Below, piece by piece: positions 41,192 to 51,021 of a stretch of 64,000 nt of DNA. The position numbers were made by a program, and so were the translations under genes. The DNA is from Candidatus Culexarchaeum yellowstonense (GTDB lineage Archaea > Thermoproteota > Methanomethylicia > Culexarchaeales > Culexarchaeaceae), in the NCBI GenBank assembly GCA_024707015.1, contig JANGFR010000003.1, positions 1 through 64,000 of the forward strand. The letters are read 5' to 3'. Every line of letters starts with the position of its first letter. The stretch's first letter is position 1. The notes under the pieces were generated by a model. The model did no database searches. It was not told the DNA's origin and was given only the letters and a program-made list of their open reading frames with translations.

Positions 41192-41281
41192 ACAAACCAA
41201 CAATACAAATAAACAATGGTACAAAATATACTTGTTGCTAATGGACAAAAATTGGAAATCCAAAACATTGAAACTAAAAGG

Positions 41282-41288
41282 TTATAAG
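41282..41288 (+). promoter_or_regulatory. TATA box of the tldD-tldE operon
   Basis: TTATAAG lies about 25-31 bases ahead of ATG 41313, so the message is probably leaderless. Confidence 0.45.
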
Positions 41289-41312
41289 CAGTTAAAATTG
41301 AAATATGATTTG

Positions 41313-42707
41313 ATGACGCACATTATGGATTTAATATTATGGGTGATAAGTAAGGGAAACGAACTTGGAGGAGAATATGTGGAAGCAAGATACCAAAAGT
41401 TTCACAGCACAAGCATCGAAATTAGAGATGGGAAGATCGTTTCAGCAGCCCCTGGAATAGAGCAGGGAGTTGCAATAAGAGTGCTACTTAATGGCGCATG
41501 GGGATTCTCCACAACAAACAACATCGATAAAAGATCACTTGAAAACGCCCTAAACATAGCTACAAAAATGGCTAAACAAGCAAGCAAAGACTCTGAAAAA
41601 ATGAATCTAGCACCAAGCAATGTGGTAATCGACGAAGTGAAAACTCCAGTAAAAGAACCACTAGAAGAAGTATCAATAGAAGAGAAGATAAAATTCCTAT
41701 CAAAGGCAGATGAAGCTGCAAGAAAAATATCACCAAACATAAAGACAACATCAAACTATGACGACTACACAGAAACAAAAATCATATGCACAAGCGATGG
41801 AACTCAAATGGAAATAAGAAATTCATGGGTTTACTGGGGAATATGGGCTTACGCCAGAGAAGCAGGATTAATACAATCATATAGGGATAGATACGCAATG
41901 CTAGGTGGATTCGAAGTAACTGAAAGAATGAAGGTGGAGGAAAGAAGCGTGGAAGCTGCAAAAAAGGCTATGGAACTATTGAAAGCGAAACCTGCACCAG
42001 GAGGAAAATTCACAGTAGTAATAGATGGAGCATTATCAGGATTAATGGCGCATGAAGCCATAGGTCACGCCTCAGAAGCCGATGGAGTACTAAGAGGGAC
42101 AAGCATACTAAGAGGGAGACTCGGGGAAAAGATAGGCTCAGAACATGTAACACTAATAGATGACGCCACAATACCAGAAAGATTTGGAACAGACGTATAC
42201 GATGATGAAGGCATCAAAACACAAAGGAAGGTCATAATACAAAGAGGGATTTTAAAGGGATACTTAACCAATAGGGAAGCAGCTGGGAAAATGAATCTAC
42301 CAGTAACTGGAAATGCAAGAGCACAAGACTACAGATTTCCACCAATAGTTAGAATGACAAACACATTCTTCCAGCCAGGAGACATGAGCTTCGAAGAATT
42401 AATTGAAGACATAAAATATGGGATATATGCGAAGGGCGGTAGAGGTGGACAAGTAAGCCCAGCTGAAGGCATATTCCAATTTGGAGCTCAAGAAGCATAC
42501 CTAATAGTCAATGGAGAAATAAAGGAGAAGCTTAGAGATTTCAGCATGAGTGGATTCATACTTGAAACATTAAAGAATGTAACTGGAGTAGCAAAAGACT
42601 TCGATATATACCCAAGCTTCTGTGGAAAGATGGGACAATCCATGAGAACCACATGTGGAGGACCACATATGAGAATAGAGAATATGATGGTTGGGGGGAG
42701 GGGGTAA
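41313..42707 (+). CDS. tldD: TldD metalloprotease subunit
   Basis: About 464 residues from ATG 41313. The zinc site HEAIGH (LMAHEAIGHASEADGVL) is complete, with the later Cys ligand in the C-terminal region (SFCGKMGQSMRTTCGG). TldD forms a heterodimer with TldE that threads unfolded or modified peptides into a closed cavity; bacterial members mature microcin B17 and degrade CcdA. The stop overlaps the tldE start (TAATG). A regulator with a Cys-rich tail lies upstream, divergent, and a poly-Glu protein and Lys-rich micropeptide lie downstream. Confidence 0.93.
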   Translation: MTHIMDLILWVISKGNELGGEYVEARYQKFHSTSIEIRDGKIVSAAPGIEQGVAIRVLLNGAWGFSTTNNIDKRSLENALNIATKMAKQASKDSEKMNLAPSNVVIDEVKTPVKEPLEEVSIEEKIKFLSKADEAARKISPNIKTTSNYDDYTETKIICTSDGTQMEIRNSWVYWGIWAYAREAGLIQSYRDRYAMLGGFEVTERMKVEERSVEAAKKAMELLKAKPAPGGKFTVVIDGALSGLMAHEAIGHASEADGVLRGTSILRGRLGEKIGSEHVTLIDDATIPERFGTDVYDDEGIKTQRKVIIQRGILKGYLTNREAAGKMNLPVTGNARAQDYRFPPIVRMTNTFFQPGDMSFEELIEDIKYGIYAKGGRGGQVSPAEGIFQFGAQEAYLIVNGEIKEKLRDFSMSGFILETLKNVTGVAKDFDIYPSFCGKMGQSMRTTCGGPHMRIENMMVGGRG

Positions 42708-44059
42708 TGGAAATCATTGAAGCAGTAAAAATAGCTGTGGAGAAAGCATTAAAATATGGTGCATCACAAGCAGAAGCCTACGCCACAAGATCCAATAGGA
42801 TAAGCATAATGACAGCCAATGATAGGGTAAGTGGAGTAAAAACTAGAGTTGGATCAGGTGAAGGTGTGGAAGGTATAGGTGTGAGGGTAGTCATTGGGAA
42901 AAGCCTCGCATATTCACACACAACAATACTAGATGAGGCGAGCATAGAAGAAACAGTTAAGACAGCAATAAAGCTCGCTAAAATTAAAGAACCAGACCCA
43001 GACTTCAAAACACTACCACAACCAAGAAAACCCCCAACAGTAGAAGGAATATATGATCCAGCAATAGAGAACCCACCAATAGATGAAATATTCGATGAAG
43101 CTAGAAGAATAGTTGGAGAAGGATTAGAGAAAGATCCAAACTTCAACACTATAAGTGCAAGCTTTAACTTCACATCAACAGAAAGAGCAATATTCAATAG
43201 CCTAGGAGTAGAGGTAAACTGGAAGGAGAGTACTGCAAGTATGGGAGTCACAATATTAGGAGAAAAGAATGGCGTTAGAAGCGTAGGATGGGAGGGGGAA
43301 GCATATAGGCAGCTAAATAAGATAGATGCCAAAATATGCCTAGCAAAAGCTATTGAAAGAGCAAAAATAGGATTCAAAGTGGCAAAAATAGAATCTGGTG
43401 AAAAGACAGTTATATTCGATCCAGATGCACTTGAATCCCTAATGGAATATGCATTTGTAAGGGCAATAGATGCGTATAACGTTCAAGAAGGGAAATCATA
43501 CTTGACAGGGAAAGTAGGTGAAAAAGTGGCCTCAGAAAAACTAACAATAATAGATGATGGCACAATACCAAATGGGCTGAGAACAACACCAACAGATGCC
43601 GAAGGAGTACCATCACAAAGAAACATAATAATCGAAAATGGAGTGTTAAAGGGATACATATACGACAGCTACACAGCACATAGAGAAGGTAGAGAAAGCA
43701 CTGGAAACGCCTTCAGACAATTCAGAACACCAATATCCATTGCACCAAGAAATATGATTATAACCGGAAAAGAAGTGAAACTAGAAGAATTAATAGGTGA
43801 AGTGAAGGAGGGGGTATTGGTAATTGGAGTAATGGGAGCCCATAGCACAAACATAGCCACAGGAGCATTCTCAATAACGGCAAACCCATCCTATGCAATA
43901 ATAAGAGGAGAATTGGCTGGACAATTAAGGGGCTGCATGATAGCAGGAACATTCAAAGAAATGTTAGAGAAATATGCTGCACAAGGAGACGATATAAAAC
44001 AAAGAGGCACACTCATCGCACCATCAGTGAAGTTTGAAGGTATAAGAATAACAACATAA
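42707..44059 (+). CDS. tldE: TldE/PmbA metalloprotease partner
   Basis: 450 residues from ATG 42707. The protein has the TldE fold with SYLTGKVGEKVASEKLTIIDDG and a C-terminal GVMGAHSTNIATGAFSITANP, and as expected lacks HExxxH. It forms the second half of the TldD/E heterodimer. TldD and TldE are nearly always paired, and here they overlap by one base. The next gene downstream is 269 bases away across an A-rich, AT-biased stretch. Confidence 0.92.
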   Translation: MEIIEAVKIAVEKALKYGASQAEAYATRSNRISIMTANDRVSGVKTRVGSGEGVEGIGVRVVIGKSLAYSHTTILDEASIEETVKTAIKLAKIKEPDPDFKTLPQPRKPPTVEGIYDPAIENPPIDEIFDEARRIVGEGLEKDPNFNTISASFNFTSTERAIFNSLGVEVNWKESTASMGVTILGEKNGVRSVGWEGEAYRQLNKIDAKICLAKAIERAKIGFKVAKIESGEKTVIFDPDALESLMEYAFVRAIDAYNVQEGKSYLTGKVGEKVASEKLTIIDDGTIPNGLRTTPTDAEGVPSQRNIIIENGVLKGYIYDSYTAHREGRESTGNAFRQFRTPISIAPRNMIITGKEVKLEELIGEVKEGVLVIGVMGAHSTNIATGAFSITANPSYAIIRGELAGQLRGCMIAGTFKEMLEKYAAQGDDIKQRGTLIAPSVKFEGIRITT

Positions 44060-44328: not shown

Positions 44329-44607
44329 ATGCCCAAAGCCAGATGTCCAATATGCGATGAAATGATAGACCTAGGAGAAAAGCCACATGTAGGAGACGTA
44401 ATAGAGTGCCCATCCTGCGGAGTATCACTATCCATAGAACAAAAAGGACGTAGATGGAGCTTGAAAATAGTAGAAGAAGAGGAAGAAGAAGAGGAAGAGT
44501 GGGAAGAAGAGGAACTAGAGGAAGAAGAGTGGGAGGAAGAAGAGGAGGAACTAGAGGAAGAGGAAGAAGAGGAAGAGGAGGAGGGGGAGGAAGAAGAGGA
44601 ATGGTGA
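44329..44607 (+). CDS. LysW-like zinc-ribbon protein with poly-glutamate tail
   Basis: 92 residues. Residues 1-48 are a LysW-like zinc ribbon (ARCPICDEM, then IECPSCGVSLSIE) similar to the amino-group carrier of archaeal lysine and arginine synthesis. From residue 49 to the end the chain is almost only Glu, broken by Trp, Leu and one Gly, ending EEEEEW. True LysW proteins end in EDWGE, whose last Glu carries the substrate; this one ends in Trp, so standard carrier function is doubtful. Charge of the tail is extreme. It is followed after 52 bases by a Lys-rich micropeptide, and TldD/TldE lie upstream. Confidence 0.8.
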   Translation: MPKARCPICDEMIDLGEKPHVGDVIECPSCGVSLSIEQKGRRWSLKIVEEEEEEEEEWEEEELEEEEWEEEEEELEEEEEEEEEEGEEEEEW

Positions 44608-44608
44608 A

Positions 44609-44637
44609 ATCCCCGCACGGGGATCCTCTCCCATTTT
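44609..44637 (+). promoter_or_regulatory. Competing hairpins ahead of the micropeptide
   Basis: ATCCCC-GCAC-GGGGAT (44609-44624) forms a 6-bp hairpin right after the stop of the poly-Glu gene. Part of its 3' arm can instead pair as GGGA with TCCC (44629-44632), followed by a short U-run (ATTTTTC). The alternative folds and the T-run look like a small terminator/anti-terminator, just ahead of the micropeptide's ribosome site. Pairing is seen; the regulation is inferred. Confidence 0.4.
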
Positions 44638-44659
44638 TCTGTTATAGGAGGTGAAAAAT

Positions 44660-44704
44660 ATGGCCGAGAAGAAGCCTGAGAAGAAGGGCAAGAAGAAGAA
44701 ATAA
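44660..44704 (+). CDS. 14-residue lysine-rich micropeptide
   Basis: ATG 44660 opens MAEKKPEKKGKKKK and stops at TAA 44702-44704. Nine of the 14 residues are Lys. The ribosome site AGGAGGTGA (44646-44654) is among the best in the window and is eight bases from the ATG, so translation is likely in spite of the small size. It follows the poly-Glu protein, giving adjacent genes for opposite charge extremes. No family is known to me. It could bind the poly-Glu tail or nucleic acid, or be a leader peptide; none of these is shown. Confidence 0.55.
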   Translation: MAEKKPEKKGKKKK

Positions 44705-44766: not shown

Positions 44767-45564
44767 TTGTTAGAAAAGCTTTTATCTAGATTGCATGTAG
44801 CTTTTAATCAGAAATTTGTTATGCCATTCTACATAATATTGAACGATGAAGGGAGAATTAACGATATAGTTGGGAAATCTAAAACGGTTCCATTAAAACT
44901 CAAAAAACACCTATTCATAGCAAATAGAATAGATGAAGATTTTCAGGAGAAGATTAATAGGGAGGATCACATACTAATTCTGAAGACGAGTAGAAGTGTG
45001 GAGAGAGCGGAAATAGATTATGAGAGTAACATGTTCAATCTTGGAAGCCTGATATTATTGGCTTATGAACCGATGGAGGATGCGAATGCCAATAGGGTCA
45101 TATACAGGTTAATTGAAAGATCACCATGTTTTAAAGCTTCGAGCCTAATATACCTCTTCCCATACATAAACTATGACAAGTATATTGAGAGGAGGATAGT
45201 TTCTCCAAGCATGATAATAAGGAAGATAATAACATATGGGGGGAGAGCTATAAGTGCATCAAGACTAAAACTAATATATCCAAGTGATGGAAAACCACTC
45301 ATAGAAGATTTAGAGAGAAACCTTATGAAGAGATTAGAAAAGATTAGTGATGCAATTCAAAAACATAAAATGCAAGAGAAAACTGTTAAAATGAAGACAC
45401 TTCTAGAAATGAGGAGCGAAATAAAAATGATAAGAAATTTGACAAAAGTATATCATGAAGAGCTAAACATAAATTTGAAAACTGTGGAATCAAAAATCAT
45501 AAACATTGCGAAAACAGTAAACCAAATGATAGAAGAAACTAGAGATGGTGAAAATAGCATATAA
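44767..45564 (+). CDS. Uncharacterised basic protein with C-terminal coiled coil
   Basis: 265 residues from TTG 44767. The first part (about 10-75) alternates strands and helices with PFYIILNDEGRINDIVG; the middle is hydrophobic and Tyr-rich (FNLGSLILLAYEPMEDA); the last 85 residues are a Lys/Glu/Met-rich coiled coil. I do not recognise the family. An ATG at 44821 is an alternative start. TATA-like sequence (TTAAATAAATTAAAA) lies near 44718-44732. It may share the transcript of the micropeptide. Its sense strand is A-rich, like its neighbours. Confidence 0.6.
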   Translation: MLEKLLSRLHVAFNQKFVMPFYIILNDEGRINDIVGKSKTVPLKLKKHLFIANRIDEDFQEKINREDHILILKTSRSVERAEIDYESNMFNLGSLILLAYEPMEDANANRVIYRLIERSPCFKASSLIYLFPYINYDKYIERRIVSPSMIIRKIITYGGRAISASRLKLIYPSDGKPLIEDLERNLMKRLEKISDAIQKHKMQEKTVKMKTLLEMRSEIKMIRNLTKVYHEELNINLKTVESKIINIAKTVNQMIEETRDGENSI

Positions 45565-46940: not shown

Positions 46941-47077
46941 GAGTAGATCTAAGCTTCAAAATATGGGTTACGTCAAGCAACTCAAATAGTGTAAGAGAAG
47001 TGACCAATGGAAAATGTTATATTAATGATGACGTAAAGGTGTTTGAACAAATTATATGGGGAGTAGAGGGGCTATCC

Positions 47078-48157
47078 ATGAAAAGTGTCATCATGATGGG
47101 CTCTGAAAACGACCTAAAAACGCTCTTTAACAAATTTAAAGGAAAAACAACGATAATAGGACCAAAGATCCCAGATGGGGAAATTGCCATAAGATACTGT
47201 GAATTAAATAATTACGATGAAATACCGAGAGGAGTGGAGGATTACCAAGAACCCGGCAAATACAGGTTAATGCAAGGAGACTTTTTCAGACATGGTTTCG
47301 ATTCCCCAAAGGGATATCTACATCCACCAGCATTAAAAATAGTTAGGGTAGAAAAGGGACTTGAAATAAAGCCATACAATTATGACCCGAAAGAAATTGT
47401 GTTTTTTGGCATAAAACCATGCGATGCAGCAGCAATAAGAGTTATGGATAAAACGTTCACATGGAATAAAGATGCATACTATAATGCCCAAAGAGAGAAG
47501 ATAACGATAATAGTGGAAAACTGCACAAAACCTGGGAAAACATGCTTCTGCGCCACGATGGGAACAGGTCCCAGAGCCACTGAAAACTTTGACATAGCAT
47601 ACACAAGGATAAATGGGAAAGTATTATTTGAAGCTGGAAGCGTTAAGGGGGAGGAAATATTGATGGAAATTGAAACTTTAAAACCAGCATCAAATGAAGT
47701 TATAGCTGAATTCATCAAAGTGATGGATGAAGCATATGAAAAAGCAAAAGCACAATTCACAACAACAAACCTACCAGAAAAACTTGAAATAAACATTGCA
47801 AACGAAAACCTATGGAAAGAGTTATCTGAGAAGTGCCTCGCATGTGGAAATTGCACAATGGTATGTCCAACATGTTTCTGCTTCGACATATATGATGAAT
47901 CACACCTAGACGAATACGTTGACAGAGTGAGATACTGGGATAGCTGCTTCACATACAAATATGCAGAAGTTGCTGGAGGACACTTCAGACCTGAAATATG
48001 GGCAATGTATAGGCAATGGATGCTACATAAATTCTCATACTGGAAAAAGCAGTTTGACGTTTTTGGATGCGTTGGATGTGGAAGATGCATAACTTGGTGT
48101 CCAGCTGGAATAGACATAAGGGAAAATGTTAAAAAAGCTTCTGGGGGGTGTAAATGA
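47078..48157 (+). CDS. hydB: [NiFe] sulfhydrogenase beta subunit (iron-sulfur protein)
   Basis: About 359 residues. N-terminal part aligns with HydB/anaerobic sulfite reductase A-type proteins (FFGIKPCDAAAIRVMD, then a Cys group NCTKPGKTCFC), and the C-terminus holds two [4Fe-4S] motifs: CLACGNCTMVCPTCFC and CVGCGRCITWCP. It passes electrons between the flavin subunit and the hydrogenase core. ATG 47078 follows GAGGGG; an in-frame GTG at 47000 would add 26 residues. The stop overlaps the gamma gene (ATGA). The four genes hydB-hydG-hydD-hydA form one operon. Confidence 0.88.
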   Translation: MKSVIMMGSENDLKTLFNKFKGKTTIIGPKIPDGEIAIRYCELNNYDEIPRGVEDYQEPGKYRLMQGDFFRHGFDSPKGYLHPPALKIVRVEKGLEIKPYNYDPKEIVFFGIKPCDAAAIRVMDKTFTWNKDAYYNAQREKITIIVENCTKPGKTCFCATMGTGPRATENFDIAYTRINGKVLFEAGSVKGEEILMEIETLKPASNEVIAEFIKVMDEAYEKAKAQFTTTNLPEKLEINIANENLWKELSEKCLACGNCTMVCPTCFCFDIYDESHLDEYVDRVRYWDSCFTYKYAEVAGGHFRPEIWAMYRQWMLHKFSYWKKQFDVFGCVGCGRCITWCPAGIDIRENVKKASGGCK

Positions 48158-48978
48158 TGGTTTACAAGGAATACATTCTGAAAAAAGCATTAATAAGTAA
48201 GGTGACGCAGGAAACGAAGGACACATACACATACCACATAAAGCCATTAGAAGATGAAATTGAAGGGGCTCCTGGGCAATTCAACATACTATACCCCTAT
48301 GGAGGGGGAGAAGCACCAATATCCATTAGTGGAATGGAAAATGGGGAAATTATGCATACAATAAGGTTTGTTGGGGCAGTAACCAGAATGCTAAGTAAAA
48401 TGAAGGAGGGAGAAATAATTGGTTTAAGGGGACCTTATGGAAACACATGGCCATTAAATGAAAGCAGAAAACAAGATATACTGATAGTTGCGGGCGGAAT
48501 AGGGCTAGCCCCACTAAGACCAGTAATAATGGAAGTCAAGAGGAATAGATCAGAATATGGTAAATTGATGATATTGTATGGCGCAAGAACACCGCAAGAC
48601 CTACTATATAGAAGGGAATTTGAAGAGTATAACAAAATAGAAGATTGCGAATTCCATGTAACAGTGGATAAGGGGGATGAGACATGGACTGGGAATGTGG
48701 GGGTTGTAACAACACTAATACCAAAAGTAGAAGTAGACCCGAAAAACACCATAGCAATGGTATGCGGACCAGAAATCATGATGAAATTCACAGTGAAAGA
48801 TTTAATGGAGAAGAAGGGGCTGGATGCATCAAGAATATACATATCTATGGAGAGACGCATGAGATGCGGTATAGGGCAATGTGGACACTGTCAAGTTGGA
48901 CCATTCTTCATATGTAAAGATGGCCCAGTATTCCAATACACAAAAATAAAGAGGTACTTCGAGGTGAAATACATATGA
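48154..48978 (+). CDS. hydG: [NiFe] sulfhydrogenase gamma subunit (NAD(P)H-binding flavoprotein)
   Basis: 274 residues of the ferredoxin-NADP reductase type: FAD site around RGPYGNTWPL, NAD(P) site VAGGIGLAPLRPVI and GPEIMMKF, and at the C-terminus a [2Fe-2S] motif CGIGQCGHCQVGPFFIC. It exchanges electrons between NAD(P)H and the iron-sulfur chain. The start overlaps the beta subunit stop and the stop overlaps the delta start, so translation is coupled. A standing start at ATG 48157 is the alternative. Confidence 0.92.
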   Translation: MMVYKEYILKKALISKVTQETKDTYTYHIKPLEDEIEGAPGQFNILYPYGGGEAPISISGMENGEIMHTIRFVGAVTRMLSKMKEGEIIGLRGPYGNTWPLNESRKQDILIVAGGIGLAPLRPVIMEVKRNRSEYGKLMILYGARTPQDLLYRREFEEYNKIEDCEFHVTVDKGDETWTGNVGVVTTLIPKVEVDPKNTIAMVCGPEIMMKFTVKDLMEKKGLDASRIYISMERRMRCGIGQCGHCQVGPFFICKDGPVFQYTKIKRYFEVKYI

Positions 48979-49733
48979 AAATTGCAATATTCAAATTTGC
49001 AAGTTGTAGCGGATGCCAACTTGAACTACTAAACCTAGAAGAAGAACTACTGGAGATAGCGGGTAAAGTTGAAATAGCATATTTTGTGGAGGCTTCAAGA
49101 AATCTCATGAAAGGACCATACGACATATCCCTCGTGGAGGGGAGCGTATCAACACCGGAACAGCTTGAGGAATTACATAAGATAAGGGAGGAATCAAAGT
49201 ACTTGATAGCAATAGGATCATGCGCCACTGCAGGTGGAATACAAGCCCTTAGAAACTGGGCTCAACTTGAAGAATACAAGAAGATCGTATATCCAAATCC
49301 AGAATGGATAAAAGCTCTGGAGAAATCCACACCACTATCAGAACATGTGAAAGTTGATTTTGAAATAAGAGGGTGCCCAATAAACAGGAAGCAATTACTA
49401 TGGGTTTTAAGTCAAATAATAATTGGAAGAGAACCATTTCTACCCACACACAGCTTATGCATACAATGCAAAATAAAGGGGTATACATGCGTAATAGTGG
49501 CAAAGGGGGAACCATGCCTAGGACCAGTGGTAATGGCCGGATGCGGAGCACTATGCCCAAGCTTCCAAAGACCATGCTACGCATGCTATGGACCGTCAGA
49601 CTTACCACAAACAACAAAACTAGCACAACAATTCATGGAGAGAGAATTGAGCAAGAAGGATATCTCATTGTTATTCAAGAAATTTGAATGCTGGAGACCC
49701 AAATTCAAGGAGGTGGTGGAGAAATATGAATAA
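48975..49733 (+). CDS. hydD: [NiFe] hydrogenase small (delta) subunit
   Basis: 252 residues. Proximal cluster ligands are in ASCSGCQLELL and IGSCATAGG with RGCPINR; a C-terminal Cys-rich region (SLCIQCKIKGYTC, EPCLGPVVMAGCGALCP, RPCYACYGPSD) holds further [4Fe-4S] clusters, as in group 3 hydrogenases. It wires the active site to the beta subunit. The start overlaps the gamma gene (ATGA) and the end overlaps the alpha gene by eight bases. No signal peptide, so the enzyme is cytosolic. Confidence 0.93.
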   Translation: MKIAIFKFASCSGCQLELLNLEEELLEIAGKVEIAYFVEASRNLMKGPYDISLVEGSVSTPEQLEELHKIREESKYLIAIGSCATAGGIQALRNWAQLEEYKKIVYPNPEWIKALEKSTPLSEHVKVDFEIRGCPINRKQLLWVLSQIIIGREPFLPTHSLCIQCKIKGYTCVIVAKGEPCLGPVVMAGCGALCPSFQRPCYACYGPSDLPQTTKLAQQFMERELSKKDISLLFKKFECWRPKFKEVVEKYE

Positions 49734-51021
49734 AAGGATGGAAATAAACATAAAACCATTAACGAGAGTGGAGGGTGAAGGCGAAGTCGAAATAGTAGTG
49801 GAAAATGGAAATGTGAAGAAGATACAAGTGGAAATAACTGAGGCACCAAGATTCTTCGAAGCATTCATAAGGGGAAGAAGGTATTTGGAAGTACCAGATT
49901 TTGTGGCAAGGATATGTGGAATATGCCCAGTACCATACATGTACAGCAGTAGCAGAGCAATGGAGAAGATACTTGAAATAAATATTCCAAAGGAAATTCA
50001 AAATCTAAGGAAAACATTACTATTTGGGGAGTGGATAAGCAGCCACGCACTACACGTATTCCTATTACATGCACCAGACTTCATGAAACTAAATGACGTA
50101 ATAGAATTGGCAAAAATAAAGCCGGAAATAGTTAGAAAAGCACTAAAGCTGAAAGCCTTCGGAAACTATGTTATGGAAAAAATTGGGGGAAGATCAGTAC
50201 ACCCAGTTTCATGCAGAATTGGAGGATTCTACAGGATAATAAGGAGGGAAGAGCTTGAAGACATCAAGAGGGAATGCAAAGATAAACAAGAAATTGCAAA
50301 AGAATTATTAGAATGGATACTCCAGCTAGAAATTCCTAAAATAAAATGTGACTACGAATACCTATCACTACAAGATCCCGAAGGGGAATACCCAACCATA
50401 GGCGGAAGAATAGTATCCAATAAGGGGATAAACATATCTGAAGAAGAATTTGAAGACAAAATAGAAGAATTCCAAGTACCATACTCCACATCGCTAAGGT
50501 GCAGAATAAAGGGGAGGGGGACATACGTAACTGGCCCAATAGCAAGATTCAACAACAACTACAAAGCTCTAAGAGGAGAGGTGAGAGACGTATTGGAAGC
50601 ATATGGATTTAAAGCACCTCTAGTGAACACATATCAAAGCATAATAGCCAGAACGGCAGAGATATACCATTCAACATTAGAAATAGAGAGACTTATAGAT
50701 GAATATAGAGAACCAGAGAAACCATACGTAGAGGGGAAAGTTAAAGCTGGATGGGGATGCGGAGCCTCAGAAGCACCTAGAGGAATACTATATCATTCAT
50801 ACGGGATAAACAGTGAAGGATACGTGGAGAAGGCAAGGATAATAGCTCCAACCACACAAAACTTGGCACACATCGAGCAAGATATACTAGTACAAATTCC
50901 AGAAATAATTAGCAAGCCAATAGAGGAAGCACAGTTAAATGTGGAGATGATAGTGAGAAATTACGATCCATGCATATCATGCTCAGTACATGCCATAAAA
51001 GTGAAAATAATTAAAAACTAA
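49726..51021 (+). CDS. hydA: [NiFe] hydrogenase large (alpha) subunit
   Basis: 431 residues. The nickel ligands are in the L1 motif RICGICPVPY and the L2 motif DPCISCSVH near the C-terminus. Nine residues (AIKVKIIKN) follow the L2 His and should be cut off by a maturation protease during nickel insertion; that protease and the Hyp proteins are not in the window. The N-terminal NIKPLTRVEGEGEVEI is typical. With beta, gamma and delta subunits this makes a group 3b-type NAD(P)-linked bidirectional hydrogenase (sulfhydrogenase), which may evolve H2 or reduce sulfur. Confidence 0.93.
   Translation: MNKRMEINIKPLTRVEGEGEVEIVVENGNVKKIQVEITEAPRFFEAFIRGRRYLEVPDFVARICGICPVPYMYSSSRAMEKILEINIPKEIQNLRKTLLFGEWISSHALHVFLLHAPDFMKLNDVIELAKIKPEIVRKALKLKAFGNYVMEKIGGRSVHPVSCRIGGFYRIIRREELEDIKRECKDKQEIAKELLEWILQLEIPKIKCDYEYLSLQDPEGEYPTIGGRIVSNKGINISEEEFEDKIEEFQVPYSTSLRCRIKGRGTYVTGPIARFNNNYKALRGEVRDVLEAYGFKAPLVNTYQSIIARTAEIYHSTLEIERLIDEYREPEKPYVEGKVKAGWGCGASEAPRGILYHSYGINSEGYVEKARIIAPTTQNLAHIEQDILVQIPEIISKPIEEAQLNVEMIVRNYDPCISCSVHAIKVKIIKN

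Follow-up and report, generated by a model that had tools for sequence, protein, structure and literature searches.

Why should an archaeal genome set a gene for an almost pure polyglutamate tail beside an open reading frame for a lysine-rich peptide of 14 residues? The locus lies in Candidatus Culexarchaeum yellowstonense, a member of a hot-spring lineage of archaea described previously (PMC9723716), and was analysed within a window of 64,000 nucleotides, the whole stretch of DNA considered here (Table 1). Three matters have to be settled: what has become of the LysW-like protein that carries the tail, whether the short frame is a gene, and whether the two products act together.

Table 1. Features of the locus; positions are those of the window.
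Feature	Position	Strand	Evidence or remarks
LysW-like protein of 92 aa: zinc ribbon and poly-Glu tail of 44 residues	44329..44607	+	Pfam, NCBIfam, Foldseek, relatives
Globular zinc ribbon with Cys4 (CPIC...CPSC), residues 1-48	44329..44472	+	AlphaFold strands 3-47, pLDDT ~90
Poly-Glu tail with interspersed Trp/Leu, end EEW	44473..44604	+	Composition, relatives, AlphaFold
Hairpin ATCCCC-GCAC-GGGGAT, with CATTTTTCTG downstream; tentatively terminator-like	44609..44624	+	Inverted repeat
Shine-Dalgarno site AGGAGGTGA	44646..44654	+	Nine-base archaeal anti-SD match; identical in G002 and L041
Micro-ORF MAEKKPEKKGKKKK	44660..44704	+	Conserved in G002 and L041, and in G006 in unchanged gene order
Downstream gene MPFYIIL..., 247 aa, no family	44821..45564	+	Kept linkage to LysW-like gene and micropeptide

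The first-pass annotation read the upstream frame as a LysW-like zinc ribbon with a tail of Glu, and this is confirmed. The 92-residue product consists of MPKARCPICDEMIDLGEKPHVGDVIECPSCGVSLSIEQKGRRWSLKIV followed by the tail, in which 38 of the 44 residues are Glu, the remainder being three Trp, two Leu and one Gly. It shares the Cys4 zinc ribbon, the fold and an acidic Glu-Trp end with the LysW and ArgW carriers of Thermus, Sulfolobus and Thermococcus (PDB entries 3wwl, 3vpb and 5k2m), but the chain terminates in EEEEEW and not in EDWGE; the homologous proteins of relatives end in EEW or EEWL. The Pfam model Zn_ribbon_LysW (PF21344) gives 29.3 bits against a cut-off of 27, and the NCBIfam LysW model NF041070 gives 38.6 bits, below its cut-off of 75. 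Foldseek, used with the AlphaFold model, matched LysW (3vpb/3wwl) with a probability of 1.00, and all of the top six matches were to LysW (0.99-1.00). The FYDLN_acid family (PF09538) likewise consists of a zinc ribbon and then an acidic low-complexity region, and its model reaches 26.7 bits (cut-off 23.9) over residues 3-85, the tail included. This match, however, covers the biased Glu tail, and the FYDLN motif is absent after the first knuckle, where the sequence is CPICDEMIDLGEKPHVGDVIECPSCG. For the domain itself, the match to the LysW fold is the better explanation.

In the AlphaFold model the tail forms a single helix (residues 52-91), a conformation that, for poly-Glu, may vary with conditions and with any counter-charge bound. 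The protein is 92-97% identical to those of three relatives, among which the tail varies in length by whole codons. A profile search of 200 genomes (E <= 1e-9) revealed no poly-Glu LysW in other lineages; it added two genomes, both with an ordinary LysW ending in EDWGE/EDWGQ beside a LysX-like frame. The viral contigs searched contained no match, and our literature search on poly-Glu zinc ribbons found nothing. Just upstream of the gene is a TldD and TldE peptidase pair (41232-44059), with TldE adjacent in the four Culexarchaeum-type genomes and not in G006, a genome from another family of the same order. Farther along the window, positions 47000-51021 hold a cluster that resembles a hydrogenase of the sulfhydrogenase type, one subunit being NAD(P)-reductase-like.

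That the protein is a relative of LysW and not a normal carrier had also been proposed, and the proposal stands: the fold is that of LysW, the EDWGE end is missing, no LysX/ArgX rises above its cut-off and ArgC has no match. In carrier LysW the EDWGE end is required and its last Glu accepts the amino acid (PMC10433800); in other members of the class LysW ends in EDWGE or EDWGQ. The genome of the window (G000) is 99.4% complete, and its best score for LysX/ArgX (TIGR02144), 41 bits, falls short of the cut-off of 275.6. None of the genomes of the order (G000, G001, G002, G006, G007) exceeds that cut-off, whereas most class neighbours pass it; neighbours score 329-354 bits. For ArgC/LysY (TIGR01850) there was no match in G000, G002, G006 and G007, the same search returning 441 bits for G023 and 439 bits for G032 as positive controls. 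No lysine or arginine gene cluster surrounds the LysW-like gene. Since LysX/ArgX falls below the cut-off and ArgC was not convincingly found, LysW-dependent lysine and arginine synthesis seems to have been lost in the order and kept by other families of the class. We consider it very likely that the LysW relative has been repurposed and is not a carrier. The tail carries repeated EEW, and that of G002 also has an internal EEWGE; to judge from these repeats, it may have arisen by expansion of the old LysW end.

The second frame, MAEKKPEKKGKKKK, begins after a gap of 52 bases, as the first-pass annotation had it. That annotation counted nine Lys in the peptide; there are eight, with two Glu and neither Arg nor Trp, giving a net charge of +6. 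The predicted N-terminally processed form is AEKKPEKKGKKKK. The ribosome site was placed eight bases before the ATG, which is correct when counted from the AGGAGG core, but the full nine-base match ends five bases before it. This nine-base site belongs to the rarest class in G000. Besides its occurrence at the micro-ORF, the sequence was found at two places in 400 kb of that genome, both strands considered; the nine-base anti-SD complement precedes a possible start in only one of 500 long ORFs, and among short ATG ORFs (6-45 aa) the micro-ORF alone has it. The site is thus among the best ribosome-binding sites seen in G000. Of 100,000 simulated spacers matched in dinucleotides, six contained a short ORF of any kind behind a nine-base site, and 43 contained one rich in K/R behind a site of at least six bases. 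Seven of the eight Lys codons are AAG, compared with 46% in the genome (p of about 0.02, calculated by hand), a bias that weakly suggests high expression. Frame-shifting or read-through from the poly-Glu gene was considered as a source of the peptide and rejected because the frame relation of the two ORFs differs among genomes. Nothing on lysine-rich archaeal small proteins was found in the literature.

We compared four Culexarchaeum-type genomes, G000, G001 (Ca. Culexarchaeum nevadense), G002 and L041, the last being a more distant MAG with a downstream protein 61% identical, and G006; G003 and G004 were too incomplete to be read for presence or absence. The expectation that the peptide and its ribosome site would be conserved beside poly-Glu homologues held in G002, L041 and G006 and failed in G001. 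The peptide is MAEKKPEEKGKKKKK in G002 and MAEKKPEEKKPKKKK in L041, each preceded by the identical ribosome site. Indeed, 35 bases, AGGAGGTGAAAAATATGGCCGAGAAGAAGCCTGAG, running from the Shine-Dalgarno site and the ATG through codon 7, are the same in G000, G002 and L041, while the spacer identity between G000 and L041 is 54% before this block and 50% after it. Length changes within the micro-ORF are of whole codons. In G006 the LysW-like protein, MVRLECPVCEEEIEL...EEEESHEKEEWL, is followed directly by GGAGGGTTGAAAATG and MAEEKKRKKRKRKPQ, the latter with a GGAGG site, and then by the downstream gene seen in the other genomes, here in broken form. The G006 peptide differs in sequence, but it is likewise K/R-rich, starts with MAE and occupies the corresponding place. 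Where Culexarchaeum has a hairpin and T-run, the LysW-like gene of G006 instead touches the ribosome site of the micropeptide with its stop codon.

G001 keeps the full poly-Glu protein, but the ATG of the micropeptide has become ACG and AGGAGGTGA has become AGGAAGTAA (L004 1400-1480, - strand). No other ATG, GTG or TTG start was seen in this frame, which stays open and basic after the ACG; loss, a non-standard start or a sequence error could each account for the change. G007, which is 95% complete, contains no LysW-like gene, no such micropeptide and no downstream gene. With strict and loose patterns applied to 398 genomes, we found no micropeptide elsewhere in the phylum beyond Culexarchaeum and the G006 locus, and the intact pair is present in only four genomes. 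Other matches to the patterns arise by chance or from the N-terminal ends of longer proteins: the only one in G007 falls at the start of an unrelated TRAM-like protein of 80 residues, and G031, G374 and their kin match through a 302-aa protein. Taken as sequence evidence, these observations make it highly probable that the micropeptide gene is real and predict that it is translated.

What, then, might the two products do? The reading we favour, tentatively and at somewhat less than an even chance, is a two-gene unit in which the repurposed LysW relative is co-encoded with a basic micropeptide that would dock on its acidic partner. In support of it we note that an acidic LysW relative has kept a basic micropeptide as its neighbour across families. 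The steps would be as follows. The pathway was lost and LysW kept; its acidic end, once used for recognition by LysX, would have expanded into the poly-Glu tail and become a general acidic binding arm. The micropeptide would be translated in excess over the acidic protein, since a tail of charge -38 needs about six peptides of +6 and the ribosome site upstream of the LysW-like gene is weak; the exceptional site of the peptide set against this weak one would fit an excess of peptide binding the acidic partner. Once docked on the acidic surface or tail, the peptide could act as a removable counter-charge and so hold the tail in a folded, occupied state, or it could be a small cargo. Electrostatic pairing of the peptide with its neighbour, also suggested in the first-pass annotation, appears to be the best single mechanism, if a doubtful one. 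Several points have to be set against this reading. Only four genomes have the pair intact, and in Culexarchaeum the hairpin and T-run ahead of the micro-ORF could cut transcription of the latter. G001 has a full tail without a startable micropeptide. In G006 an equally basic peptide accompanies a LysW-like protein with a short acidic end, so that peptide and length of tail are not closely coupled.

This last point can be turned round. If the basicity of the peptide is independent of tail length, the peptide may be a free one that binds RNA, DNA or the ribosome, the poly-Glu protein being merely its neighbour on the transcript. We regard such a nucleic-acid- or ribosome-binding peptide as nearly as likely as electrostatic pairing, that is, possible and on the unlikely side. 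Its composition, rich in Lys and Arg with no fixed pattern, and the MAE start kept in G006 along with exchange of Lys and Arg would fit nucleic-acid binding; the strong Shine-Dalgarno site suggests high output. Small basic ribosomal proteins such as eL41 are very short and strongly basic, have a strong translation signal and are prone to omission from annotation. The sequence of eL41 is rich in Arg and Trp, however, and the micropeptide, which has neither residue and is tied to a LysW-like gene, resembles it in charge only. A free peptide would also leave unexplained the link to the LysW-like gene retained across families, and by the patterns used it has no copy elsewhere.

A further reading, which we think unlikely, holds that the act of translation matters and not the peptide: a terminal cistron with a perfect Shine-Dalgarno site might hold ribosomes, protect the 3' end or sense lysine. 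Between G000 and L041 none of six third positions varied in the micro-ORF, whereas the zinc-ribbon part differed at 16 of 47, but six codons are a small base for any firm conclusion. Directly ahead of the micro-ORF lie the hairpin and T-run, an arrangement found between the ORFs in Culexarchaeum (44609-44640) and clearest in L041. The inverted repeat is present in G000, G002 and L041, with fold z-scores of -2.34 in L041 and 0 in G000, and the minimum free-energy fold of G001 uses a different pairing. Lysine sensing in particular is unlikely because G006 has changed codons and uses Arg besides Lys. Attenuator leader peptides are very short ORFs rich in one amino acid. They differ in that the micro-ORF stands after its linked gene and not before it, and the gene downstream of it is apparently not one for amino-acid biosynthesis. 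That downstream gene, moreover, has its own conserved AT-rich upstream element, set apart from the micro-ORF by T-rich stretches (both recognized by eye; a sigma-70 promoter scan is unsuited to archaea). The linkage holds in the four Culexarchaeum-type genomes and also in G006, where several stops interrupt the gene (homologues in L003, L004, L041 and L008). Of 40 class genomes, 36 yielded no match to it, Pfam gave no significant one, and its structural model has a mean pLDDT of 55.

It is improbable that the micro-ORF is no gene at all, only a decaying purine-rich stretch that mimics a Shine-Dalgarno site and codons for Lys and Glu. Purine-rich DNA rarely makes stops, and in G001 the ATG and the strength of the site are lost with the purine-rich frame still open. 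The identical 35-base block next to diverged spacers, the same arrangement in the family of G006 and the simulations all argue the other way, and conservation in L041 and G006 largely refutes this explanation. Least probable is either a carrier of LysW type offering many Glu acceptors, as the first-pass annotation suggested, or a poly-Glu store, an explanation for which the LysW fold and the EEWGE of G002, recalling EDWGE, can be cited, and which we reject because the terminal residue is Trp with no EDWGE end, neither LysX/ArgX above its cut-off nor an ArgC-family match exists in G000 and its sequenced order-mates while class neighbours have both, and no second LysW-like carrier was found in G000.

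Returning to the two-gene unit, its strongest form would make the freed LysW an acidic scaffold obligately paired with a poly-Lys micropeptide of 14-15 residues, a two-part electrostatic complex in which one partner is among the shortest known conserved archaeal protein-coding genes; we put this forward as an unlikely outcome. The locus offers an archaeal gene of only 14-15 codons that is conserved and clearly marked for translation; genes so small are commonly passed over by gene finders and seldom have conservation to back them. It also offers an example of a carrier protein retained and reshaped after the loss of its pathway.
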